Shown here piece by piece: positions 3,401 to 37,800 of a stretch of DNA of 64,000 nucleotides. Positions within the stretch are counted from its first letter, which is position 1, and each line of letters begins with the position of its first letter. This stretch comes from Owenia fusiformis (Eukaryota > Annelida > Polychaeta > Sabellida > Oweniidae). A program made the position numbers and the translations under genes. Below the pieces are notes generated by a model, which was not told the origin of the DNA, searched no databases, and saw only the letters and a program-made list of their open reading frames with translations. The stretch spans positions 7,941,375 through 8,005,374 of the forward strand of contig CAIIXF020000005.1 of assembly GCA_903813345.2 (NCBI GenBank), given 5' to 3'.

Positions 3401-6400
3401 AAGATTTGTCAACTCTTATCAGTCTATATCAGCAAACACAAAATTGATTTTATCTAGTTTCTGTAACACACATAAAAACAGACCACAGGTTTAAATCCAG
3501 CAAAATGGTAGGCTGTTAAGAACTATTTTATATATCTGTTGTGCATGTATGTTCAATGTCAATGTCATTGTTTGACGTTGGTATTGACAAACAAATGAGA
3601 CATTATCTAATAACATGCACTATTATATATAAATACAACATGTAATGTTTGCTGTGTGAACTAAAATTTCTACCAATGAAATGCATGACTTTTTGGCATA
3701 TCTAATTTGTTTGTTTTTTATGTTTTTCAAAGACAATTTTGTTCTTGTAGATAAACCTCTTATTGACTGTTCAAATTTCTTTTCACATGTTGCCCTTTGT
3801 GTTTTTTATTTATTATCATTTATTGAATAAAAGCAATAACAACATGGAAAATTGTAATTTATGTTTTACACACTCAGCATTCAACAATTAATGTTGAATT
3901 AAATCCTAATTATGAATCATGATATTGAATGTTATTATTTGTTCTTTATTAGCTTAACAGCTTGTAATGACTTATCATTCATCTTGAATAGCGCTATAAT
4001 TAATAAGAGGTTCATTAATGCAGTCTTGATTTTATGTCACCAGCCAGCAGTGGTGGCATATTGTTATAATCTCCAACTTTTTTGTGGATGGTGGTCGGCA
4101 GTTGGTGCCTGTAACAAATGGCAGGTGGTGACATTTTGCATGTTAATGCCTTGTTTTAATTTGGAGACTTAATTTTAGAAAATGATTGGGCATTTCAAAA
4201 AATGAGCAAGAAATATTGAAAAATTGTGACACTTCTTCTTCAAAAAGTTAAAACATGACCCTGCCCGTTGCTGTTCCATTTTATTTCCTGTCGTTATTAA
4301 CCACATGTATGTGCAGGGTGTACTTTGAATAAATGGTTGCATATTCAATTAAGGATTTAAGCCCTGGACTCAGTGCATTGTTTGCTGAATCATGCCATGA
4401 AGGTGTTAATTCCAAACCTTTGCATGACTGTGCAGCGGGCTTAAATTTTGTCTTTGGCTTAAATTCTTTTCACACATTGCAATTTTTTCTACAAAATCAT
4501 CCAAAAGGGACGAAATCACTAAAAGAACACATTTGCAAGGGTCAAGTTGGCAAGTCATCAAATCCAGTGTGAAATGTCCATTCATCACCATGACAACTGT
4601 TTAACTATATAAAAACTGGTGGTCAGTGGTCGGCCTCAGCAGATGGTGACTTTTTGTCTAGTGAATAACTTATTTTTATAACGTAGGCTTTACCAAGTAT
4701 ATGGTTTCTCGCTTTAAACCTTATATTGATATCTGTATTGTAATTGTTTGTGCATATCTAAAATGAGTCAGATCAAACTGCTAAATAGCATGTTCTTTTA
4801 CATTAGCCTTCATGCAAATAATAATCATGAAAAGTGTTTGTTTCACCTTTCATTATTGATATAACAACAATAAAATGCGTGATTGTTTGATTGTTCATCA
4901 TTATAACCTTATTATGATTTATACCAGTTTGATTGATTTACCATAAACTTCCGATTGGATGATATACTCGTAGTCGACAATGTAGCATCAGACGTTTGCT
5001 TCAGATAATGTGAGAATATTTCAAATTGGTGTGTAATTAGAGACATAAAAGAAATCCTGGGAAGCAATTTTCGTGCCATTCATCTCAGGATATTGGATAT
5101 AATTTTATAATTAACTTCCATTACATACAATCCAACCTATTCCATGACATATGCTAATACCCCTAATTTGGAAAAATGGGCAAGTCCAAAAACAACAGGA
5201 TAACCTGAATCCCTCTAGGTCAACTGACCTAACACCCCTTTATATGCTATAACTTCATAATTGTACTCATAAATGTATGGAAAAGTGGAAAAAATTTTAG
5301 AGTCCAGTTTTTACTCTATCTGCTAGAAGTTTTCTTAGATAATTGGTAAATTTATGGCAGATAAATGCAGGACTAGGGGTTACCAGATTGTTACGGGAAC
5401 CTAGTCAACGTGATAGTCTTCAGAAGTCGGAAATCTACAATCTGAACTGGCACAGATGACCAAGTAGCCTTATCCCGTGCCAGGACTATAGTCCTGCATG
5501 CAGAGCATTCTTTTGCCTGTACGATTACAACATGGGAGAATTTTCTACGCTTTTTACACTTAAGATACCTATTTCAATAGATTCCTTGTTATTTTAGCAT
5601 TCTTTTCTTGTAGTTGAATCCACAATTGTCTGGGTTTATCGGCAGAACAAAGAAATTTTCGTTTTTAATCACAATATTTGCGTGTACTATTTAACTTATT
5701 TCAACCGTCAAATTCCTCCATTTTTGGTGCTTCCGGGCCACTTCCGGGTCAGTCAAACGGGGAATCCCCTTTTAAATCCAACCGCCATCTTGGAAAGTGA
5801 TGGAATATCTCTCGATGAAAAAGAACAATGTTCCCGTTCTGCCGATATACCCAGACAATTGTGGATTCAACTACACGAAAAGAATGCTAAAATACCCAGG
5901 AATCAATTGAAGTAGGTATCTTAAGTGTAAGGGGCGTAGATAATTCTCCCAAGTTGTAATCGTACAGGCAAAAGAATGCTCTGCATGCAGGACTATAGTC
6001 CTGGTACGGGATAAAAGTAGCCAATCTTTGGGATAGCAAGGTGCATATTAGAAGCATGCACAACGTGAGTAGCAGTTTACTGAGGGAGTTGGTGCCCACC
6101 ATCCCATGGTAGATCTTCAAGACTATACCTCAGCAGGGCCTCCTCAGCAGCAGAAGGTACTTGGACAGAGTCACAAGTCATTCTTCAGTGCAGTGAGCAC
6201 ATTTTGTGGTTGTATTTTAGTGTACTTCTAACACTAGAAACAGGTCAGTTTTTAGGAAATCCTTCCATGGATTTTATTTTCAAGCAACATGTTTACCTAA
6301 CAGTCAATTTTAGGTTAGCCTAGCTTGTCTTTCAGGCCTCCTAGACTTCCAACAACGCGAACATCAGTTCTGATACCGCGAACTACGTTCCTTGCACTCG

Positions 6401-21000: not shown

Positions 21001-22245
21001 GCCAGCTTTTCTCAAGGGGGTTATTTTATAAAACTTTATTTCAATGTTTTACTTATTGCTCTTATTTCTCAATTAAAGATGTCAGGATATACAGTATCAT
21101 ATTAGATACATGCGAGTGGTATCTGTTCCGCACGATCTGGGTAAAAATAACACTCTCGGGGTAAAAATCACTTACAGGTAGGTCATAAAACTGCATCCAA
21201 ATCACAATTCACTGTGATTATTCTGTAGTGTTTATGGTGAATCACATATTTACCTACCCTACTGTATTCACCCATGGAGCACATCAGCTTATCTCAAGTT
21301 TTTTCCCAAACTGGCACACAGTTAAGATGTCAATTTGTGCAGTCTCGTGAACAACCTAGATAAATGTAAGTACATGTATTCTAAAAATACAGATGATGTG
21401 AAACACATTCTGCTAGCTAAATATACTAACAAGAACAAGCAAGGTCGATGAACTTTTGTTTTGTTGTTTTGTTCCAAAATCTTGCGAATTTTACCAGAAT
21501 CTGTGGATTTTGCATGAGAGAACTGTTTGATGACTACCTTTGTAGATTTCTAACCTTGTGTTTGACAGTGTTGCTCTTTTATTTTGGCATAAGAACTTGT
21601 ACCAAGAGTTACATCCAATCACAAGACCATTCCCTGGCAAATAAGATTTAAATGACAACCTTAAGCTTCCTTGGTCATGAAATTTAGGCTCTCTATCGTT
21701 TCAGGAAGATGTCAACCATATTGAACACAGGCCCTGGAAGATTAACCCCCCCAGTCACAATATAGCTAATGTAAAAAAAAGTTCTACCTAAATACATAGT
21801 GAGTGGGGGGTGAACTCTTGTTCCCGTGTCTGTTATATTGGATGTTGATAAGTTGCTCTGAGATTTGGTTGCTACATAATTTGACTGTTCCCGGGCCTAT
21901 GACAGGGAATGTAGTTTGTTCAAGCTGCTACATGAGCTGTAATCGGAATATCTCTGTTTGTTTACATGCCACGCCCCCTTCATGTCAGCCTGACATTACC
22001 GAGGTCAAGGTCCTCGTCGTCTGCTATTTTGTTTCAAAACGAGGCTATATTTTGACGTCACTAACCACTTGCAAAGTAATAACAACATGTTCTCTGCGTT
22101 AGTTCATCATTTTCTGAATGTATAGCATGACAATAGCAGCTGGATTAAATATGTTCAATTCAACAGTAACTGAGGAGAGACAATATGCTGATTTTGTTTG
22201 AGAATGTAGACGTTTTATACATAAAAACATAGGCCTACTCTCGAT

Positions 22246-22809
22246 ATGTCGAAGGAAAAGAAAAAAGTTGAGGAATTTTTGCAAAAAAATCCACATTTTC
22301 TCAAAGAATGGATTAGAGAAAATGCAAGCCCTGAGTTGAAGGCAGAATTATCTGATGAGTTGAAAGTTAATGAGCCTGTTATCCAATATGATAGTAGCGC
22401 CAGAAATTCCATAACACAATGCATGTTCAAAAGTTATGTGGAGGGGAAGAGGTCGAAAAAGATATCTGTGCAGAAGGATATCTCGGCTCTTCAGAGTATG
22501 AACGAGAAAGAACTGTTCATGGAATTGATAAGAGATGTTGCAAATGAGCTTGATGTAAATGTATTATGCCATAAAATTCTAGTCAATGTCAGTATGCTGA
22601 CAAAATGTGATCGTGGTAGCTTATTCCTTGCAAGGGGTCCAAAGGAAAATCGTTTCCTTGTGTCCAAACTCTTTGATGTGACACAGACTTCAACAATTCA
22701 AGAATCCATTCATACTGCAGATAATGAAATAAAAGTTCCATTTGGTGTTGGAATTGCAGGTTGTGTTGCAGAAACAAAAACCATGATAAATATCACTGAT
22801 GCTTATGAG
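22246..22809 (+). CDS. PDE11A: PDE11-like exon 1: start codon, N-terminus, first half of GAF-A
   Basis: 188 codons from ATG at 22246 to a GTAAGA donor, phase 0. An in-frame TAA 24 bases upstream (22222-22224) supports this ATG as start. The first 80 residues ([19 protein letters not shown], then a Lys-rich stretch with GKRSKKIS) resemble the short helical N-terminus of the family. GAF-A follows, with [31 protein letters not shown] and ITDAYE. Confidence 0.93.
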
Positions 22810-25800
22810 GTAAGAATGGCGTGTGTTTACAAATGAAGTCTGGCCTTGCTATAGCACACATTATCTAATCTTCTTCATCGCACGATTGTCCTAAATAGCT
22901 AAAATATGCACCGTACATCTTTTAAACCAACTAGTCAATCATGTACCCCTTGCCCCTAAAAAATTGATGATAACTTTTTCCACTTACATTGTAAGTTACA
23001 AGAATTTATTACAGGTTTTGTAGACTTGTGCATGTTGGTTGTGTGGTGCCTTAACAGATCTCATAACTGGGGGGGGGGGGCATAACTTAATCTTAGAAGC
23101 GAATCGGTTCAAAAAAAATCCTAGAAGACCCAATATATTTTACCATACCGCGCGCCTATTCATTGAGCAATTCAGTAGTAAACCTTCTCTTAAAAAAATA
23201 AATCTTCCATATTTGTTGATTTGATTGCAGAAATCGCTTTCCCCTCTCCGTCCCATTTTCCCAGTCACCAGGCGTGTATCTTACCCTTTTAAATTTCAAT
23301 ATGAAAATTGCAATATGCGCTCATTAGATCGAAAGAATATGTGATATAAAAGTCACATATTCAGGGCTGTCACCAGGAAATATTTAGGGTGTGGTGCTAA
23401 CATCTTCAGAAGAACCGTTCAATCGTGATAAATCGAAAATTATGTTTTATCCTTTTTACATGCTATTATTGTATATTCTGTCATGATTTGCCAATAGGGT
23501 GTGGAGGGAACTAAATAGAGTGTGGTGCTGCGCCACATTCTAAAAGCCTGGCGAGAGCCCTGCATATTGTAGGCTGTTGTAAAAATAGTTGTTTGTTTCC
23601 AGATATTTCCATCAGTAGAATTTTTTCAGACTGATGGGATACTAGTCATACAGCAGTTGGAATTCCGAATCAATCAGTATCTGTAACAATTGTTTCACTT
23701 TTCAAACCATTTAGGCATTTAATATAACTTACTAGGTGGCAAAATTTTGTCATATATATGCTTTGATAAAATTTGGGGTAATATAGGGTCAGAGTTAAGA
23801 CTGATCGGTGATCAATAGCACTTTTAAGAAGCCTTTGTTATAGATACAATGAATAGATCTGTAAATCATTAGTTGTTACAGTGCGCGAAATAGACGTCCG
23901 ACATCGGCCATTGGCCTGACAAAATTATAGATGGCTTGTTTTGATAAAAACACCCAGACATTTTGGCCTGCTAGACATTTGTGGCATTCGTTAGATTGCC
24001 CATGAATAGAACTTACATATCAGTCCGGAAATCCTCCGAATTCCCTGCGTTTTCGGCTTATTTCATGACTTTTGTTGAAGATTGAAAAACATTTCAAAAT
24101 ATTTTTGTTTGGTACCGAAGCACAAGATATAACGTGACTTTCGATTGGCTGTTGTTGTTTGTTTAAATTACGGTGATTTTGATTGGCTATGAATGACTCA
24201 TTTCTTAATTGTCGTTCGCAAATCGAGTGCATTATCAGTATGCCGGATGTAGGAAAGAAATTGAAAAATCGAGCCGGTGTGAAAGAAATGATGGTCCCGC
24301 AGGGATTATGGTCCCCTTTCTTAACGGCCCTTACTGGCCCTGATTGTGTATAAGATAATGAGGGAAAGAGTTGTATTTAGGTCACCATATAAATCAATGG
24401 AGAGTAGGACCATAATTTGATAGGACCTCCTACCCTTTTACACCTGCATCTAAGTCGAAAAAGTCGGCAGTTTGGAAGTATTTTGGGACTCCGATATCAC
24501 AAGGTAAACGAATTGGTGATAGTACACCATGCAGACTATGTGAAATGCCGATCACATTCGCGGCAGATGCTTTATATTTGATTTAATTGACGTATTTCTG
24601 AATGTGATTTTGAAAAGTGAAACTGAAAGTGAAACTGTCATCATCAGACGATTGTATCATTTTTAGTGTTCTGTCTGTCCCGTCCCGTCCCGAAAGTACC
24701 GTATCCCGAGACCATTTGTACCGATCCAAACCGTACCGAATTTTTTGGACCGTGACACCAATAATATATACCTTGAATTTTAGTGGAGTCTGTGTACATA
24801 ATATGTGTTTTTGAATACCTTGAAGCTTCTGATTTCTGAGCAATTCTAAACCGACCAAAATCAGTACAATTTAGTTTGATCAATATGTACATCAGGCCTG
24901 TCAACTGTCCCGCAATTTGCGTATTTGTCACGCATTTGCTGAAGAATTTGAAGTCACGCCAGTTTTTTTTGCGTGACAGAAAATGTCACGCAAATACGCA
25001 TTTTACCTGGTAATTGTCACGCAAAACTATTTCTGTAGAAATTTTTGCGAAATATGTTTACGATACGGTAAAAATACGAACGTCGGAATAAAACCGAACG
25101 CAATTTGTTCGGATTTGTCACGCGAATCCCGTATATGTCACGCATGTTCATTGGAAATTTTCGTACCTAGCTGAAGAATTGTGACATCTAAATTTGATCA
25201 GCGCCAGTCAACGGCTTGCTGTTTGTCTCAAACTGTAGCCTACATATGGGCTCATATGTGTCTAGTTTCCCCGTGCATGAAGGATCGCGGATGTGCTTCT
25301 ATGGCGATCAGGAGTTCTAATCGTGTTTTGTTCGATACCCATTTCCAATATGGCGGTTAAACGGAAATACTATCGACGCATGCGCAACTTGGGAAACGTC
25401 AAGCCGCCATATTGAATATACCTGGCCAAAACTTTTGACACGACCAATAAAATGAAGTCCTGATCGATACATAGGGCAGTGAGACGTTCTATAGTTGAGC
25501 TGAATGAAAGATGGCGATGTAGGATACATTTTCAGGTATATAATGTGCAACATGAGTCAGCTGAATTCCCTGAAATTTTCTTTGAAGTCAGGATTCTTAA
25601 GCTGTTGATTCTAGCGATAGAGAGCTATACTTTAAAAAATCTAAGTAGCTCTCGACGGGAGTAAGTACAGTATAGTGAATGATACATGACATGCAATATG
25701 CAATTAGTTTTATCTTTGTTAATATTGTACTAAACTAAATCTCAATTTAGAGTGGTTGTGGAGAAATATGGTAAGTGAAATTTTTGGCCAGAGAAGGAAG

Positions 25801-28800
25801 AAACAGCCTGCCAAAAATTGGCCTGAGAAAAAATGATATGGCTTGTTAAAATCTGGCAGGCCTGCCAAAATGTCTAGGTTAAAAAAATCCTTATTTCATG
25901 CACTGTGTTATGATTTATCGAATTTTTAAAGTATCTTCACTCTTAATTGCTCTATCTAAACTTAGCTAGGTTGTAATATGTTCCATTAAGATCATAATAT
26001 TATTTCAGGACCCAAGATTTAACAAAGAAGTGGACAAAAAAACTGGGTACAGAACGCACAGTGTCCTTTGCATGCCTATTTGTAACCATGACGGAGATGT
26101 GATAGGTGTTGCACAAATTATCAACAAAACCAATGGAAATCATCAATTTAATGATGATGATATTGAGGTAAGTCTTGATTCAAAGGATTATATGAGTGAT
26201 TGCATGTTTATCGGTTACATTCTAGGATACATTGAATTGATTAACAGAGCAGTGATTTTGTTGGTATTTCCATATTATATATTGATGTATTCTAGATGTG
26301 TAAACAATTAATTTTGGTCTAATTATTACAAAATATTTGAATACAGACACAAACTAAACAGTGCTTATGGACAATCATATACAATATAGGAAAGAAAATT
26401 AAATACATATAATTGTAATGTTTGGTTCATCATCCTGAATATAGAATTCACCATCTCTAATCAAAATGTTGCTTTCTCTAGTTTGTGATAATTAAAGAAA
26501 TACATGTATGTATATGTAGACAGACACACAGTTCACTTGATTGCTGAAACATTTATTGATCCTTCTCACTATGAAGTGTTAATTGCTCATGGATCTATTT
26601 CTTATTTTCTAAACATTGATCTGTATCAACTTACATGTGTGATAGGTTAAAACATGATTATTAAATATTTTAATGTTTATTATTAACTATTTTTATGTAA
26701 ATGTCTGCATGATGGACATACAGACCTAATCTGTTAACCAGATTCATTAAAGCCCCATATAAAGTTTAAACCTCTTTGACTGATATTAAAGTCTTTCCCA
26801 ATGTTATCAAAATGTGTTATGTCAAACTTTTCAATTTAATTTCAAAAAGTTGATTTTGAAGCACTTAATTTAGACCATTCTTGTAACATACATTCTAACC
26901 TATTTTGTGTTAAAAATAACTTATAAGCGGAGAAAAGTGGTCAAGAGAAAAAAGTATTTTAAAATATTAGTTCCCATTGAATCCAATGGTACATCAATAT
27001 TTAGAGCATGATAAAAACTTATTTTCAACTAAGATAAAAATTATTCAATGTCAAAACAATATTATGATTGAATAACTCAAGTTCATTTACTTCAGAGAAT
27101 AATGATTTAATTTCGTCGTTTGGCCAGTTATCCTACCAGCTTTATCAAGATTACATTTAAAGTGGAAGTATACAGTTATACTATTTATGACGTTATAATT
27201 GAATAATACAATACCCAGGTATTTGCACCATGTAATGCAATAGCCAGGTATATTATGATTATGTTGAAAACCAAAATTGTAAACATTAAACATCAAATGT
27301 TTTTTGCTTTCAGGTCTTCAAAAACTATTTAACATTCTGTGGGATCGGCCTGACTAATGCACAGCTATTTGAAATGTCTGTGCTTGAATATAAAAGAAAC
27401 CAGGTATGATTTAGTTTAATCAAAAAATTGACCGCAATTGTTCAACCGTGCCTTGTCTCATTTGGATTAAAATGTCTTGATTTATCTTACATTGCAATTC
27501 TAAGTTGCAACTTACCAAGGCATAAAATAGATGCAAAGAAAAGTGAAGTGTATCAAAGTTTCTGTCGTATTGTACTTTTGAATGCTATATTGATATTCAC
27601 ATGGGTTTTCTAAAGCTAGCATTCAAGAAAGCCCATTAATACAGTCATAATAACATATTTTTCTAAATAGCTAGCTGATTTTTTATCACACCATCGGTCA
27701 TCACGATTTCAGGAAAACTGCTCATCAGATATTCTCCAAGTTGGCACGCAGGATATCAAGTTCTAGAGCTGATTAACTTTTGGGTAGCCCTCTTGTTTTC
27801 TGGCAGCCACTTTGAAGGTTTTTCAATGGTGTGATCTCGTTCACGTTATGTGCCTTGTTTCTCCAAAATCAACACATTTGGTGATAGGCAAACTCAATAT
27901 ATATTATTGTTCAGTTCTTGAAACAATCAAATTCTAACCTAAACCTACTTATTAGTTTATGAAATACCTTTATTTAGGGAGTGTTTGCTTTTACTTTGCA
28001 TATGGTTTAGAAAATACAAAAGCAATGATAAACTATGAGGAGTTCGCGGAAATAATCACTCTGCGCCTTGAATGATTGACAAATACATGTACATTGTACA
28101 TAATGTTAAATGCATCTTTTAAAATTAAAGAAGCTCAATTCTATTATCTTGTTATTCTGATCTCAAATACACCAATGATAGTACATGTACATTCATTGTT
28201 TTTTAGTTTGCCTTTAGAGTTCTTCAAGCTGTTTTAAAAAATGTCCTTGGAATACCTTTTTTTCATACAATTTACAGGGGTTTCAATAAGCACAGGCGGG
28301 TGGCGAAAACGCCTGTTCAAATCTCAATTACGCCTGTTCAAATATGTAGAAATAAAATTCACTGTTACTTACCTTAGTATCTTGTTGATTTACATGTAGA
28401 TGCTGTTGAAAATGGCTCGGAGTATTTTTGAGGAACAGTCGAATCTTGACAATCTGGTCCAGAAGATCATGCTTGAATCACAAGACTTGTTAAAATGTGA
28501 ACGCTGTAGTGTTTATATCATCGATGATACCATGGAGGGGGTATGTAAACTATTTTATAAACATTCTTACCTCACCTTTGTAGTACTAAGTGGTTGATTT
28601 TGAAAGTGGGAATTCTATCAAATATAATATCTCAGTATGTGTATGTATATTCTCATCTCAATTGGAATCTTGAAGGGATTTGATCTTGGATTTTGGATTG
28701 ACTAATAATTTTTTTTATTATGCACCTTTAGATACTGCAATATGATTGGTTCTAAGCTGCTTGTAATTTGGCAATACTCTGCTCTTTTCTGAAAACTGCC

Positions 28801-31800
28801 AGATATTTTTATTTCAATATCTGACCCTTTAGGGTCGGATATTTTTTTAATGTATTTGCAACATTCCCCACTATGAGTTTCATTTATCAATAGCTCGAGT
28901 ACTACTTAAAGCTAACATCAGAAACTGGTGGCAAACAAAAGAAAAAGTGTACTTAATCAAACAAATTTACACTTATCATTCAAACATTATGCATAAATGT
29001 GCAAGAACACCTCAAATAAATGTAAATTGGATCTCGGGAAAAAACAATGCTTTTTCGTACGGTATATAGGTAGACGGTACATCATAGCACACTCATAATA
29101 AAACAAATACTGGATGATCAGGAGCTGGATATGGCCAGAATACCTATCCTCGAAAAAATATTGGGCGAGGCAGGAGCCGAGCCCAATATTTTTTTCTCGA
29201 ATAGGTATTCTGCCATATCCAGATCCTGATCATCCAGTATTTGTTTAATATCCTGTATTTACACACAGTGTGATAGATACCCATATTGCCCTCCAATGTC
29301 ATCGAGTTCACATGCTTTGATGTTTTATTCATTTTTGTTAAAAAATTTGAAACACCATAAGTGCCCAATATCAACTGAACAAAGATGTTATTCAATGATT
29401 TTTTTGCAAATAGAAAATAGTGTGCTACATATCAAAAGAATCAGTATTCACTTATTCAATCATAAATACAGACTTTCCCAGGCATAATATTTTTAATGAA
29501 AGTTATTCAGTGCTGATCATTTTTTAGTTTAGAAATAGTTTATTGATAATGCAATTTCAAAGATCAAATCTCTAAGGGATAGGATAAGGTTGAGTATGGC
29601 TGAAGGGTTTATCTTGAGAGACCTTCTTTAAGTTTTATATTCAAATGTTCAGAATCAACTTTTTAGATTTCATCTTAATTCAGCACCCAATACATGATGA
29701 TGTCTATATTATTATACTACTTATGAGAGTTATATTATCTATGCTGCAAGTCGAGATAAGATACATGTTAAATTGTATTCTTTATCAGATCTAATAATAG
29801 AACAATTCTTCCAGTTGTTGCATGGTATGCTTCTACTTGGTACAGCACAATATCCTCTTATGTGGATAGAATGCATGTGAAAGTGTAGACCACTCATAAT
29901 TATTTGTTATCATCCATTTAAAAATGACCATTGTTACACTATTAAATGAAATATAATAAGGTAGAGAATGAAGTAATAATGGACATTTATTTCTGTATAT
30001 GGTGCATGATGCCAATGATATATAATAAATATTGATTAGTGATCATTTATGACATCAATTATACATAAATCACTTTGTAGGTATCAGTTATATGATACAT
30101 TTGAGGATGAGTTACATGATTTATTGCAGATATTCCATTCAATGTATGCAAACCCAATGTTGTAAAACATACTTAGAAAGAAATTACACTTTATAACATA
30201 TTTTTATATTTATTTTAGATATAAATGTTGATGTTTTGTACTAAAATTTCTGAAAACTTTCAGATCTGCTTAATGCACTTGTAACGTTACATGTCTATCC
30301 TTCCATATAAGACAGAAACTTCACTTTACCATAGCAACAAAAATTGTGTTTAGGTGCTGAAATCTTAAAGCTGTAGGATGATTTACGTTTATCAGTTTGT
30401 GCCTTTTAGACAAATACTGCTGAAGTCAGATCAATCGTTATAATTCTTGTGATATGTAAAAGTGCTCAAATGATTTTATGTTCTGGTATGTGTGAGGTCT
30501 AACTTACTTCAATCCTCTTCTTGGAGAGGAGGGGGATGTTTGGCTGCTTGCTATCATGTGTTTCCAGATTGGCATTAAAGAAAACAAAATTATATGTTCG
30601 CTTAATGAATATAAATCAACCATTGTTTGATATCTATGTAACTATGTACCTATACAACTGGATATTGTACATTATCTTAATCAATAATTTCTTCACTTTT
30701 AGATTAAGTAAACTAATGTCAAGATGATCAGATGATATTATTTTACCATTAAATGAGTAAAGAATAAAATATAAGAGAATATTAAAGACTATTTAAAACA
30801 GTTTCCTTAACTTTCAGCTTTTGGAATGTATTTTTGGTATAATCAATATAATAATTGAATCATGCAAACTGATTGGAAGTAAAAATTCAAAACCTACCAA
30901 ACCATAATTTTAGAAGAATATTAAAATGTTTCTATATAAGTCACAGAACAGCTAATCTTTCTAAAAAATGTAATCTTTGATAACTCAAATACCATTTGAC
31001 AGATTTGGTTCAAATTCTATTTTTCAATGCCTTGGGACTTAAGTACATAAGACAACTCGTCAAGAAGAAATTTTTAACATGGCCACTGAATTTTAAAATG
31101 GCCACAATGAATTTTTATTAAAAATAGAATTTTTGATTAGCATATTCCATACATCTTCATTTATATTGATGAGAAATAAGGGACCAATGCAAAAGATCGA
31201 TGTCGGAAGGTGTTATTGTCCCAAATAGTTAAGCTCTGCCGACATCGATTATAGAATTCCTTGGAATCTTCGCCATGGTCATATCGTCCAATGGAGACCA
31301 CCATTCTTTTTGAGGAATGAGCAGTTTCATTCTTTCACCAGTCTTCATCGGTCTAGTTTGTTAAAATCTGATCACGTGATACTTCCATGGTAACTGAGGC
31401 CTTCATAGATGACATCACACGGTCAGAGGGGATTTCATTGTCATTGGACTCAACAGAACTCAGTGTAAATGAGGCTTTAGAGTAATTCAGTTGTAATGAT
31501 GCTTCAATTGGCTTTCCAACAAACTTCATCTCTAAGTCAGAATAGTGTGTGACTCTATCATCATTGTCATTAAACAATAGAGCAATCAACTTATGCTTTT
31601 CCATAATCCACATTGACAGCTGCATGCAAATGGAATAAACCATTTATTCTACAATACCATCCCTCACAATGAGTTCTATTCAACCAACCCTGAATAAAAT
31701 AACCTACCCTGTGACTAGGAGCCTAGTTCTAATTACAACTCTCTGAATAGGACAAATAAATATAATTTTAATGCTGATAATAGGGAGTTTAAGCTTGCAT

Positions 31801-34800
31801 AAGATCGAAACGCCAACCTATACGTATGACCAATCGCCCATACAAGTGCATTGCACAAATAACGTTCGCGTTTAGGTTGTGAAATACAGTGGTAAACTAT
31901 CTAATATCTTAACAACCTCAAAAGTAGTGACCATGATCTTTCAAGAGTGTGAATATGATTTTAATGCCAGCTACTTAATAGTACTTATGAAGTCATTCAC
32001 TTCTGTGACTGCAGTTCTGATTAGGCAGCTGGATAAGAAGAAGCTCTTTTTTAGGCCCGAATCAAATTATTTCAAGAGTAAAAATAACCTTTTCTGTATT
32101 CCTTATATTATTCAAATAAGGTCTGAGATATATAAGGGTTATGTACTGGGAGGTTTTGGATACAGGGTTTATCCCAAGGGAAATATGTGTATCTCACGAG
32201 GGACCGCAGGGACCGAGGGAGATACACATATTTCCCGCGGGATAAACACTGTATCCAAAACCAACCGTACATAACTGGTGTATCTCAGACCTTTACCATC
32301 TTTTTCAAATGACAAGATAGGCCTATACTGTAAAAGCACAATTTATATTTAACATTTTCATAATATTCCTTTAATTCAATACAATAGAATTGTAACATTT
32401 AAACTTTTGGAAAAATTTTAAACTTCTGAAATTAAAATTTTTAAAATTTTAAAACTTTTTTAAACTTTTGAAAAAATTCCCGGGAGCGGGATGGATATAT
32501 TATATCTGCCCGCATTTGGCCTAGAGCGGGACATATACAATATATCCTGCCCGCTCCTCAGATATGATATATATTCCCGGGTGATATCTACCCCAAACCC
32601 ACTCAAGTATGAAATACATATAGGTTATTTACTGGGAAGGATTGAATATGGGTTTTATTCCGAGGGACAATATGATATTGCCCAAGGTCAATATCATATT
32701 TTCCGAGGAATAAAACCCATATTCAATCCCGACCAGAAATAACCTCTTTATTCCATAACTCTAAAATGTTACATTTGGATAATGCAAACATTACATTAAT
32801 AAATGCACATTGTTTGCGCTCCCTCGGTCAATATCATATTGCCCAATGTCAATATAATATTTCCCGAGGAATAAAACCCATATTCATTTTATCAATTAGT
32901 CAAGGTTAAAAATAACCGGGAAACCCAAAATAAGTTAATACGCTCCCTTTATTTTTTCTAACTCTTTATTTTTCAGAATTTGATCTGCCAGTGCTATTAA
33001 TATGGCATTCGTTTGGTTTGAAGGTTGAACATCATCAATTAATCCTAGATCTTCATATTACCAATTATAAAGGAACATGTTCAAAGATAACCTAGATTTT
33101 TCTGATTATCAATTAATGTAATGTGCACTTAATGGAACAGTCACTTCTCTAGATTTTCTGAAGCAATGAACTTTAATACTAATCAGTAGTCATGCAACCC
33201 CTTAACACTCCCTATATTAAATACTGGACCCAGTGCTAGGGATGACTATACATCTACAACATACACGAACAAGAGTCCCCTATTCACCTTTCTTGATTCT
33301 TACCAAGGTCTACTTGACGAACATTGTCATGAAATCTAGAAGGTATCCCACGATTTATAACTTGTCATTTTGTTCTCAAATGAGCAACCTTATTCTTTTG
33401 TGCACCAAGTTTTAGTAAAAAATCAGTAATGTAAAAAATCGGTAAAAAATGACTTGTGCAAACATGTCATTTTTCGGTAGCACCGTAGGTAAATTTCCCG
33501 GGAGAGTTGAGTGAAAATATTTCACAGGGTATCATGTTTCCATAGTGAAATGAAACATCTTTCCGAACCTCATTAGAACAAAACGACATAAATACAACGT
33601 GCTTAGGTCTCTCAATATTGTTGTTGTACAAAGGAAATTTTCGTTGATTTAAAAAAAAAATCTTGTTAATGAAATAAAAGGTTTATCTTGATTTTTATCT
33701 ATTTTGGGGGATTTAATTTTAATTTTTTGAACACTTTTGAAATCAACCATAAATTCCTTTGTATAACATATAATATTGAGAGGTCTATGTTGTATATGCT
33801 ATTTTGTTCCAACAAGGTTCCGAAAGACATTTTATTTCATTCTCAAGAATTGTTAGAAAGGAGCAAAACAATTGCACTAAAAAACAAAAAATGTTAACAA
33901 AAACAGTTATATAAAATATTTCTAAATTTTTAAATTGTTGTCAATCAGTCAACATTACATAAAATACCGTGTTTTTTTACAGAATGTTTTCAATAATTGG
34001 TTTAAGAGAAAACATTGTTGAATTCAGTTCACCATATCGATACCTATCCTTAGGCAAAGTGATGTCATATTTGAAATCTACATGTAAAAGTACATCTAGA
34101 AATATGGTTTCAAAAATTGTTTATCAACTTTGAAAATTAAATTTTTTTTAAAAATGTGAAACTCAATACCACCCTTGGTATACGCAGCTAACGAAAATTG
34201 ACCGGCACGGGTCAAAAGCTGGACCGGCGGGTTAATGGTTTTATTTGAATTTAAAACAGCCATAACTTGCTCAATATTGACTTCCTCGTGTCTAATTTGA
34301 AATATATGATTCCTCCCGATGCTTTTAAGTACCCCAATTTTTTACAGATTTTTAAACGGACCAAAACTCTCTAAATGCGCATTTATGCTCTTTTCTCTCG
34401 AGAACGACTGTCTCATTTTCACGATAACTTTTATTTAGTACTTCTAACATATAAGATCTATTTTTCCCCATCAAGGTATGATGTAAATGACATGCTATTT
34501 ACATCTTGTGAGTTTCAATGACGCGCGTTTGATTTTATAAAAAATGCCAAACTTTGTGACAAAGAATTTCATCCTGCTTGCAGCGAGAAGACGGACCGGT
34601 TCGGGGCAATCTGCTTGCAACGAGAAGACGGACCGGTTCGGGCAAAAGCTGATGAATTTCTTTGTCACAAAGTTTGGCATTTTTTATAAAATCAAACGCG
34701 CGTCATTGAAACTCACAAGATGTAAATAGCATGTCATTTACATCATACCTTGATGGGGAAAAATAGATCTTATATGTTAGAGGTACTAAATAAAAGTTAT

Positions 34801-37800
34801 CGTGAAAATGAGACAGTCGTTCTCGAGAGAAAAGAGCATAAATGCGCATTTAGAGAGTTTTGGTCCGTTTAAAAATCTGTAAAAAATTGGGGTACTTAAA
34901 AGCATCGGGAGGAATCATATATTTCAAATTAGACACGAGGAAGTCAATATTGAGCAAGTTATGGCTGTTTTAAATTCAAATAAAACCGTTAACCCGTGCC
35001 GGTCCAGCTTTTGACCCCTGCCGGTCAATTTTCGTTAGCTGCGTATACCAAGGGTGAATATATATACCACCCTTGGTATACGCAGCTAACGAAAATTGAC
35101 CGGTACGGGTCAAAAGCTGGACCGGTACGGGTTAACGGTTTTATTTGAATTTAAAATAGCCATAACTTGCTCAATATTGACTTCCTCGTGTCTAATTTGA
35201 AATATATGATGCCTCCCGATGCTTTTAAGTACCCCAATTTTTTACAGATTTTTAAACGGACCAAAACTCTCTAAATGCACATTCATGCTCTTTTCTCTCG
35301 AGAACGACTGTCTCATTTTCACGATAACTTTTATTTAGTACTTCTAACATATAAGATCTATTTTTCCCCATCAAGGTATGATGTAAATGACATGCTATTT
35401 ACATCTTGTGAGTTTCAATGACGCGCGTTTGATTTTATAAAAAATGCCAAACTTTGTGACAAAGAATTTCATCCTGCTTGCAGCGAGAAGACGGACCGGT
35501 TCGGGGCAATCTGCTTGCAGCGAGAAGACGGACCGGTTCGGGGCAATAGCTGATGAAATTCTTTGTTCGTTGTGTCAACACCTCTAACTGTTATATAGCA
35601 TAAATATATTATAGATCGTCACACATTTATAAAAGGGTGATTTTTATTTTGACAAATCAATTCCACATTTATGGGTGTAGTTTCAGGATCTTCTATTTGT
35701 GTATAATAAGGAAAAATTGGCATCTAAATTTCCCCATAACGTAATAGCACACAGCTTGGCATATATGAAATACCCTACCAATGAAACAAAGCAGTTCTAA
35801 TACAAGGATTTATATTGGCTGTTGTACATGTATTCTTTGAACACAATCACTCTTTGGATAATGTTTTCAAAATCATTATAAACGGATTACTTTATCTCAA
35901 AGACAATTTCAATAAACTGGATTTTACAGAACTCCCCTTATTTCTTAAAAATGGACTGACTAGTTGATTCGCCTGGAGCCGCCATATTGTTTTTATACTG
36001 GAAGCTTATCGGAACCCTTTAAAGGCAGAATCAGATGTATAGGGGTGACAAAATTACAAGCAACATCTATCAATCTATTCCTTACAATCTCAAATATAAT
36101 ATCTCCCAAAAGATTCACGATATGTTATAAATTGATGGTTGTCATGGATTTAAAGTGCAAAAATGGGTAAAAAATGTTTTCCTGAAATAAAGTGTGCACT
36201 TTGGGCATTTTTAGAAAATAGACATGACATGACAAGGAATGATATGAGCCAGAAATATTCTAAAATTGAAAGAATTTTTTGTTGGCCTGCTCGCTAGATC
36301 TGATACTCTCTTTAATGTCAATATATTACATAATAGGCATTTATTCTATAGTCATTACCACTGGATATTAAAACAGGCAAAGATGATCTAATATCTACAA
36401 GTTTTATGACCCCTAATTAACTGAAATATAAGCTGAGATGAATGTTCTCAAAAATCTTCATTTCAAATCTGGGCTCTCTTGGATCACTGAATTTAACCCA
36501 TAATATATCATGGCATCATATGGCTGAGAAGAAATGAGATGTCATGGTTTATCGTGATGCTAAATTGCTGCAGAAGTAAACTTAGAACAGTTTTTATTGT
36601 TATCTACCTCCTGGTAATTATCCTGATGACGTCTATAAGTCACTAGGTGGGTGGATATCTCTGGTGATGGGATAATACTGTTTATCCCATACTTGGACGT
36701 GTTTTAGGCACAGGTTTTAGGTACTTAAGTAGGTTGTAAAGAGTTGTGTTTTCATCAGCAGGCAGGATATAGCTTACATCTCGGCTGAGCATCTGCCCGC
36801 TACGTCATAGTCACTGTTTGCATGTTGGTGCATTTTTGTTATGTTGGTGCTGCATTTGTGTACCCTTCGCATAATTATTTCTGTGAACAGCAATAATGAG
36901 AAAAGCAGATCACAATCTGTTTAATGATTTAAACAAAGGAAGGAGCATTCCTATCTGGGTATACCTCTTAATCAAAGATTCAAAAGCATAAATGTCTATG
37001 AATTTCTGAAATGCTGGATAATATTTCTTTTTGATTGTTCATTATCTCCTGACATCAATCAACACAGATATCAAGTCTGTTAATATGGCCATAAAAGAGA
37101 AGTAGGAACAGTTCAATTTTCATTTCCATCTGGTGTTATCAAGCATAGAAACAGTAAAGATAGAATATATTTCCTGTACTTAGCAAGGTCGCAAGGTCCA
37201 TATGCCTTTGGTAAAAAAATATTCAAGTAGTTTTTTATAATCGGCTTTTAGATAATGATGGTTAAAAAAAGGCACAGGGGTATTTTTGCAAATTAATAAT
37301 CTATATGAGATAAAAATGAGTGAAATCGGCTGCATTTAAATTTCTACATGTTCAAAACAGTTCTCCAACAAATCAATCATAATAGCTTAGAGAATATGTT
37401 TTCAGAATGTTTATAATTATGATTAATCGTAATGCCTGAAGATAATTTATTGCTGGATTGCCCCTGTCTGCAACTCTCTCCATGAATTACTGGGTTTAGA
37501 GATTCTCTTGCATAAAAGAACTACAGGGTGGTCCAAAAAAGTGAACCCCTGCAACAGGCTATATTTTCCTTAATACTTGCATGAATTTGCTCATATTATC
37601 ACATCTTGTAGAGAAAGGTCTCAAATTTTTGTTGACACCATAATTTATTCTCAGTCTTGAATTTCAAAGAAATTACAAGACTTAAACAAACATGCCTTAA
37701 ATTAGATTTTGTCCAAAATTTTACCAATGTGATTGACGGAAATTGTTGATACACATTAGATGATCTTAAAAAAGGTTTCAGTTTGAGATTATAAGTTTAA

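Follow-up and report, generated by a model that had tools for sequence, protein, structure and literature searches.

In a 64,000-nt stretch of the genome of the annelid Owenia fusiformis (assembly GCA_903813345.2, contig CAIIXF020000005.1, positions 7,941,375 to 8,005,374 of the forward strand; hereafter the window), we found three long and very stable hairpins, termed H1, H2 and H3. Our analysis indicated that these are probably the 3′-terminal hairpins of three non-autonomous Helitron2/HINE-like transposon families, the fold presumably having been kept as a terminator that is read by its shape. H1 lies at 29101–29246 on the plus strand, and H2 (32135–32277) and H3 (about 32618–32745) lie on the minus strand. 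The ungapped palindrome scores of H1, H2 and H3 were 32, 35 and 23, respectively, and the highest score in ten Markov shuffles of the window was 16. When folded with RNA parameters, H2 reached −111.9 kcal/mol (z −17.0), H1 −101.6 kcal/mol (z −18.3) and H3 −73.8 kcal/mol (z −12.1), and for each hairpin none of 200 dinucleotide shuffles was as stable. A palindrome inside the H2 element, close to its 5′ end (32483–32557, minus strand), was weaker when folded as 32475–32590 (−46.0 kcal/mol, z −3.8), and a partial copy of the H3 hairpin at 32826–32886, to which no strand was assigned, matched 32665–32725 at 92% and was also recovered with the H3 hairpin as query. An earlier note on this DNA had claimed four hairpins within 29101–32892. 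H1, H2 and H3 were confirmed at their places, and its H4 could be either the internal palindrome or the partial H3 copy.

The abundance of the three hairpins was examined in the 498-Mb assembly, which has 525 contigs (C1–C12 are chromosome-sized, C2 and C7 as judged from hit positions, and C13 is 0.66 Mb). First-look searches returned at least 2,290 candidates for the H2 hairpin, at least 1,465 for H3 and at least 492 for H1; the 40 scored for each query showed identities of 96–100%, 84–100% and 94–100%, respectively. The pattern CTGGGAGG-N82..112-CCGACC, which occurs in the outer stems of hairpins like H2 and of some like H3, had 594 + 536 matches in the genome, and the reversed pattern had 5 + 3. 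Allowing up to three mismatches, the H2 terminal repeat matched 556 + 569 times and the control not once. All three hairpins are multi-copy, and each forms the 3′ terminus of a non-autonomous element that is abundant in the genome.

Alignment of copies revealed one plan in all three families, in which the 5′ terminal repeat recurs in inverted form directly inside the 3′ hairpin (an asymmetric terminal inverted repeat, ATIR). The H2 element of the window, defined by its junctions and by copy alignment, is 486 bp long and occupies 32132–32617 on the minus strand, with its 5′ end at 32617 and its 3′ end at 32132; aligned copies measured 478–521 bp and had unique flanks on both sides. From 5′ to 3′ the order is the start GTATTTCATACTTGAGTGGGTTTGGGGTAGATAT, the internal palindrome, an AT-rich body, the inverted start, the hairpin and the end CCCTTAT. 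The 5′ ATIR copy is at 32583–32617, and the 3′ copy is present as a remnant at 32280–32287 (both minus strand), 26 nt shorter than in other copies. The H1 element (28712–29247, plus strand, with the outermost 2 nt on the 5′ side extrapolated) lacks an internal part in comparison with the element at locus L034, which aligned to 28714–29028 at 82% and to 29094–29247 at 94%. H1 elements mostly start with TTATTATGCACCTC, carry GAGGTGCATAATAA directly before the hairpin and end in GTTTA, the 5′ motif being present in eight of ten loci. In H3 elements (L022 and L028), TATTTATTCCATAATAC stands at the start and its inverse adjoins the hairpin; the 3′ ATIR copy of the window H3 is at 32744–32759 (minus strand). 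The hairpins of these elements are about 125–145 nt long, and the elements, at about 480–520 bp, show no apparent coding capacity. A first view of the H2 repeats as ordinary terminal inverted repeats with a hairpin inserted alongside was argued against by the junctions.

We then found that H1 and H2 insert beside NTAT without target duplication. The H2 3′ end was followed by NTA in all 20 copies and by NTAT in 18 of them, and the base preceding the 5′ end was T in 15 of 19; in this count the junction motif did not recover L008, L019 supplied only its 3′ side, and L021 duplicates L001. For the H1 copies in L034, L035 and L036, the joined flanks matched paralogous empty sites that were gap-free at the junction, the site for L036 being found in L035 at 98.6% over 138 nt. 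Gap-free joins were likewise obtained for H2 in L004, where the flank is a tandem repeat, and in L013 (84%), where the first bases after the junction differ. No target duplication was seen at the paralogous empty sites of these five insertions (three H1, two H2). For L001, L007, L009, L015 and L017 the join aligned to the locus it came from, and the L014 join was weak (81% over 47 nt); none of these was counted as an empty site. Inverted repeats, high copy number and short elements without apparent coding capacity are what one would expect of ordinary miniature inverted-repeat transposable elements (MITEs) that have long palindromic ends and belong to a cut-and-paste (DDE) transposon, but the position of the second repeat, inside the hairpin, makes the two ends unlike, and the five empty sites largely refute such an origin unless they are secondary losses. 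We regard it as highly improbable.

Elements were often found in or directly beside other hairpin elements (L034, L035, L036, L011, L009 and window 32617/32618). At 32617/32618 of the window, no base separates the 3′ terminus of H3 from the 5′ terminus of H2; L009 contains an H2–H2 join, an H2 element sits within an H1-like hairpin in L011, and for the L035 insertion the empty site falls within another hairpin in L036. Insertion into or next to hairpin elements is possibly a target preference.

To assess covariation, 86 hairpins were collected, comprising subfamilies a (H2, 22 hairpins), e (5), b (18), c (7) and d (4), H3 (26) and four outliers. Clustering placed a and e together, and the two were separated manually; the outlier L099 entered neither the consensus groups nor the comparison, and four of 30 H3 hairpins were dropped as lacking the extraction motif. 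Across the six consensuses, 19 of 61 pairs had two-sided changes, compared with a shuffle mean of 5.4; none of 500 shuffles reached 19, and slid structures gave 1–3. Standard pairs filled 94.9% of the cells of the 61-pair structure, a percentage that is partly circular because the structure was derived from the same sequences; the two-sided changes are less so. Consensus a differed from c by seven two-sided paired changes, one one-sided paired change and one broken pair, and b differed from c by ten, one and one, respectively. The single outliers L080, L097 and L098 showed many broken pairs. The earlier note had stated that each difference in a left arm is matched in the right arm. Its example, GGATAC/GTATCC in H2 against GAATAT/ATATTC in H3, is correct, but the general statement was too strong: among the pairs differing between consensus a (H2) and H3, 11 were two-sided and paired, two one-sided and paired, and nine one-sided and unpaired in that alignment register.

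Within subfamilies the changes were of another kind. The 218 changed pair cells consisted of 149 one-sided breaks, 57 one-sided changes with pairing retained, nine two-sided breaks and only three two-sided paired changes, two of which fall at the single position separating a from e. Covariation is strong between subfamilies and nearly absent within them. Since the changes within subfamilies were mostly one-sided breaks, resident copies do not appear to be maintained; they probably decay, with the fold kept along the spreading lineages only. Selection on the folded strand, one of the causes proposed in the earlier note, is supported at the level of spreading lineages, where the 19 pairs argue for it, and the near absence of compensation speaks against it in resident copies. 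The same note had set against its claim the prospect of one ordinary MITE family with random unpaired mutations. Half of that prospect was borne out, mutations within subfamilies being mostly unpaired; covariation between subfamilies survives, and the lack of target duplication and the asymmetric ends are not those of an ordinary MITE. The fold was kept while the spreading lineages changed in sequence, which suggests that the mobilising machinery reads shape, not sequence.

A second feature of the stems is a set of two-by-two mismatches in which one strand has GA on both arms and the other strand has TC, in the contexts CC-GA-GG versus CC-GA-GG, GG-GA-CC versus GG-GA-CC and C-GA-G versus C-GA-G. 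The CGAGG...CCGAG turns described in the earlier note are real and correspond to these tandem G-A mismatches. GA/GA accounted for 12 of the 16 two-by-two loops across the six consensuses, the other four being AA/GC, AA/GA and, twice, GA/AA; the collecting pattern itself required one outer GA/GA in copies of b, c, d and e. A folding census of 42 hairpins, with 82 GA/GA two-by-two loops, was not relied on because the collecting pattern forces one such loop per collected copy. In palindromes gathered free of any motif, mismatches were counted by arm-to-arm alignment in 27 families, a microsatellite having been dropped from 28: of 26 two-by-two loops, four were GA/GA or TC/TC against an expectation of 1 in 72 (p = 0.0004). 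In H1, H2 and H3, GA is carried by the strand complementary to the 5′-to-3′ strand of the element (by the plus strand for the window H2), except at the tip of the window H1. The G-A strand folded better than its complement in all six consensuses with both DNA and RNA parameters, the difference for e being only 0.3 kcal/mol with DNA; the hairpin of locus L070 (3391–3540) had the opposite strand preference with DNA parameters. Our inference is that these tandem mismatches have a role in recognition or in the choice of strand. A more specific and tentative idea is that tandem G-A/T-C mismatches might form a strand code telling a rolling-circle nuclease which strand is that of the transposon, so that the stem could drift freely by compensation.

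Besides L070, further long hairpins were noted in L011 (699–861), L028 (1100–1243) and L036 (1813–1913). All four have similar turns with CGAG- or TGAG-type mismatches, are unrelated to H1, H2 and H3 at the blast cut-off used, and are probably more families of the same kind.

Covariation could also arise without selection on the fold if arm-to-arm template switching or hairpin conversion rebuilt one arm from the other, as the earlier note had considered, and covariation between subfamilies alone cannot tell selection from such rebuilding in the source lineages. Events of this type may occur. The tip of the window H1 (29160–29190) is inverted relative to all nine others of the ten H1 copies read. 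In the window H2, 13 of the 14 positions of 32280–32293 are complementary to the outer flank 32118–32131, at a place where other copies are 26 nt longer, and this arm junction looks like a single arm-to-flank template switch. These events appear rare and too infrequent among copies to explain the covariation, as the three two-sided paired cells within subfamilies illustrate. Moreover, arm copying would convert GA/GA to GA/TC, yet GA/GA predominates in the consensus loops; a conserved tandem G-A that copying would erase argues that arm copying is not the main cause, and we consider this explanation unlikely.

The G-A strand asymmetry and the stability with RNA parameters would suit a hairpin that acts as RNA, either as a small-RNA source or as a structured transcript under selection, its mobility being incidental. 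Such a role is quite unlikely: resident copies are not maintained, the hairpin stands at the element end beside a terminal repeat in three families, and an Rfam search of window positions 28700–33000 gave nine matches at E up to 1, all below the gathering score. A viral source was also considered; the H2 tip pattern had no exact match in viral contigs.

The reading of the hairpins as terminators leads to the following putative mechanism. A rolling-circle (HUH) nuclease-helicase would mobilise the H1, H2 and H3 elements, and the hairpin would form in single-stranded DNA and mark the 3′ end of the element. The sequence of the stem would be nearly free, and the shape of the stem, the positions of the mismatches and the turn would be read by the enzyme, such that changes would persist in spreading lineages only when compensated. 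The mismatches may help the enzyme distinguish the two strands of a nearly palindromic signal. Recognition of the 3′ end by Helitron-like enzymes is known from few elements, with short hairpins. Several subfamilies of long hairpins that diverged with compensation in one genome provide a natural scan of the features read by the enzyme, and, with compensated change in the spreading lineages set against uncompensated change in residents, selection acting at transposition can be told from mutation in place. A role of the tandem mismatches in strand choice would be a testable idea of how a transposase tells strands apart. DNA elements of this kind can also pass for structured RNA genes in covariation scans.

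As for an enzyme, PF14214 (Helitron_like_N) had 58 matches in the genome, many of them in long open frames (about 3,000 aa), indicating that candidate helpers exist. Part of one open frame contained OTU, PF14214 and PIF1 domains by Pfam; a possible C-terminal endonuclease was judged by eye only. The PF14214 genes are plausible, unproven helpers. Several of the matches, many in long open frames, were grouped on the small contigs C13, C505, C515 and C158. The Y1 HUH transposase of REP and IS200/IS605 elements (PF01797) was rejected as a candidate, having no match in this genome and matches in five of 14 control genomes.

A number of results weigh against the reading of the hairpins as terminators of Helitron2/HINE-like elements. 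No autonomous element with H1, H2 or H3 ends was found among the loci examined, whether a RepHel-encoding partner as in Helitron2 or an endonuclease-carrying one as in Helentron/HINE. Three Helitron-type loci with a common 3′ region (L069–L071) end without a long hairpin, their short terminal hairpin having been read by eye and not folded, and the 3′ end was not placed for L068, L072, L073 and L114–L118. All 20 repeat ends checked that lacked a listed partner, taken from C1 among the matches listed of 1,125, carry an H2 element, including L119, where most of the body is missing. The G-A idea had been suggested by the H1 and H2/H3 clusters, and without them the excess amounted to two of 23 loops (p = 0.04), one in the long L070 hairpin and one in an unrelated palindrome. 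Within subfamilies, unpaired positions changed in 80 of 1,780 cases (4.5%) and paired positions in 230 of 7,892 (2.9%); the unpaired rate was the higher in five of six subfamilies and slightly lower in a, and weak constraint on resident copies, or a variable tip, may lie behind this faster change. The termini differ as well. Helitron2 is described with ATIRs of 8–15 bp about 20–30 bp from the 3′ end and a target of TTTT followed by T or C, and HINE/DINE-1 elements, which are non-autonomous Helentrons, with a 3′ palindrome of 5–10 bp and the target TT (PMC3627910 and PMC4067079). In contrast, the 3′ repeat of H2 (from 32280) stands about 150 nt away from the element terminus at 32132, the hairpins are far longer than described for Helitron2, the target is NTAT rather than either published sequence, and H2 begins with G, not T.

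Elsewhere in the window, a near-perfect inverted repeat was noted at 34813–35311 (arms of 244 nt, spacer of 11 nt), near a 37-bp tandem repeat at 35474–35547, and another inverted repeat at 5493–5991 (arms of 156 nt, spacer of 187 nt). An open frame of 203 codons at 22225–22836 (plus strand) presumably resembles the start of a GAF-domain phosphodiesterase.

Finally, the elements were compared with known systems. The earlier note could name no described family, which is partly right: the architecture fits Helitron2/HINE by plan (PMC3627910, PMC4067079), with membership putative. Like Helitron2, H1, H2 and H3 have ATIRs, with the 3′ copy immediately upstream of the 3′ hairpin, and, as in the short elements of Helitron2, target duplication is lacking for H1 (L034, L035, L036) and H2 (L004, L013). 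The palindrome near the H2 5′ end (32483–32557) is a candidate counterpart of the 5′ hairpin of Helitron2, which involves the 5′ ATIR. The repeats here differ in reaching about 35 bp, and no partner protein has been linked to them. With HINE/DINE-1 they share short non-coding elements, inverted repeats near both ends, a 3′ palindrome and an AT-rich target, but not the TT target or the short palindrome, and no mismatch motif appears to be mentioned for HINEs (PMC4067079). FoHeli of Fusarium has ATIRs, terminal hairpins, an AT-rich four-base target preference (TNAT) and reconstructed empty sites; its hairpins are short, its elements autonomous and its target on the other side of the element (PMC5148889). 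In Helraiser, a Helitron1 element, the 3′ hairpin is a transposition terminator in which a stem swap kept about 90% of activity and a loop change did not (PMC4778049). A terminator of this sort would be expected to drift with compensation and to keep irregular features, as was found here. Helraiser differs in its 19-bp palindrome and its 5′-TC and CTAG-3′ ends, and the Helitron1 ends 5′-TC/CTRR-3′ are absent from H2 (GTATTTC...CCCTTAT) and H1 (TTATTATG...GTTTA).

A likeness in the way of working, as opposed to plan, is to the REP hairpins of Escherichia coli, abundant hairpins with a conserved two-base stem mismatch, whose HUH enzyme acts on one strand and needs the stem mismatch, seemingly as a mispaired state and not as particular bases (PMC8266576). 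REP hairpins differ in being about 29–37 nt long, bacterial and served by a Y1 enzyme (TnpA-REP), the family of PF01797. If true, the strand code would be a eukaryotic, several-fold longer analogue of these mismatch-dependent hairpins, with an enzyme not yet linked to such ends. Among the literature titles seen, none was recognised as describing long mismatch-bearing Helitron hairpins, which does not prove their absence from print. Covariation as such is not new, compensatory changes having been noted at the ends of two related mosquito Helitron2 elements (PMC3627910, Bao and Jurka 2013). What appears new, as far as we have seen, is the length of the hairpins, the tandem-mismatch motif, the target and the contrast between change within and between subfamilies.

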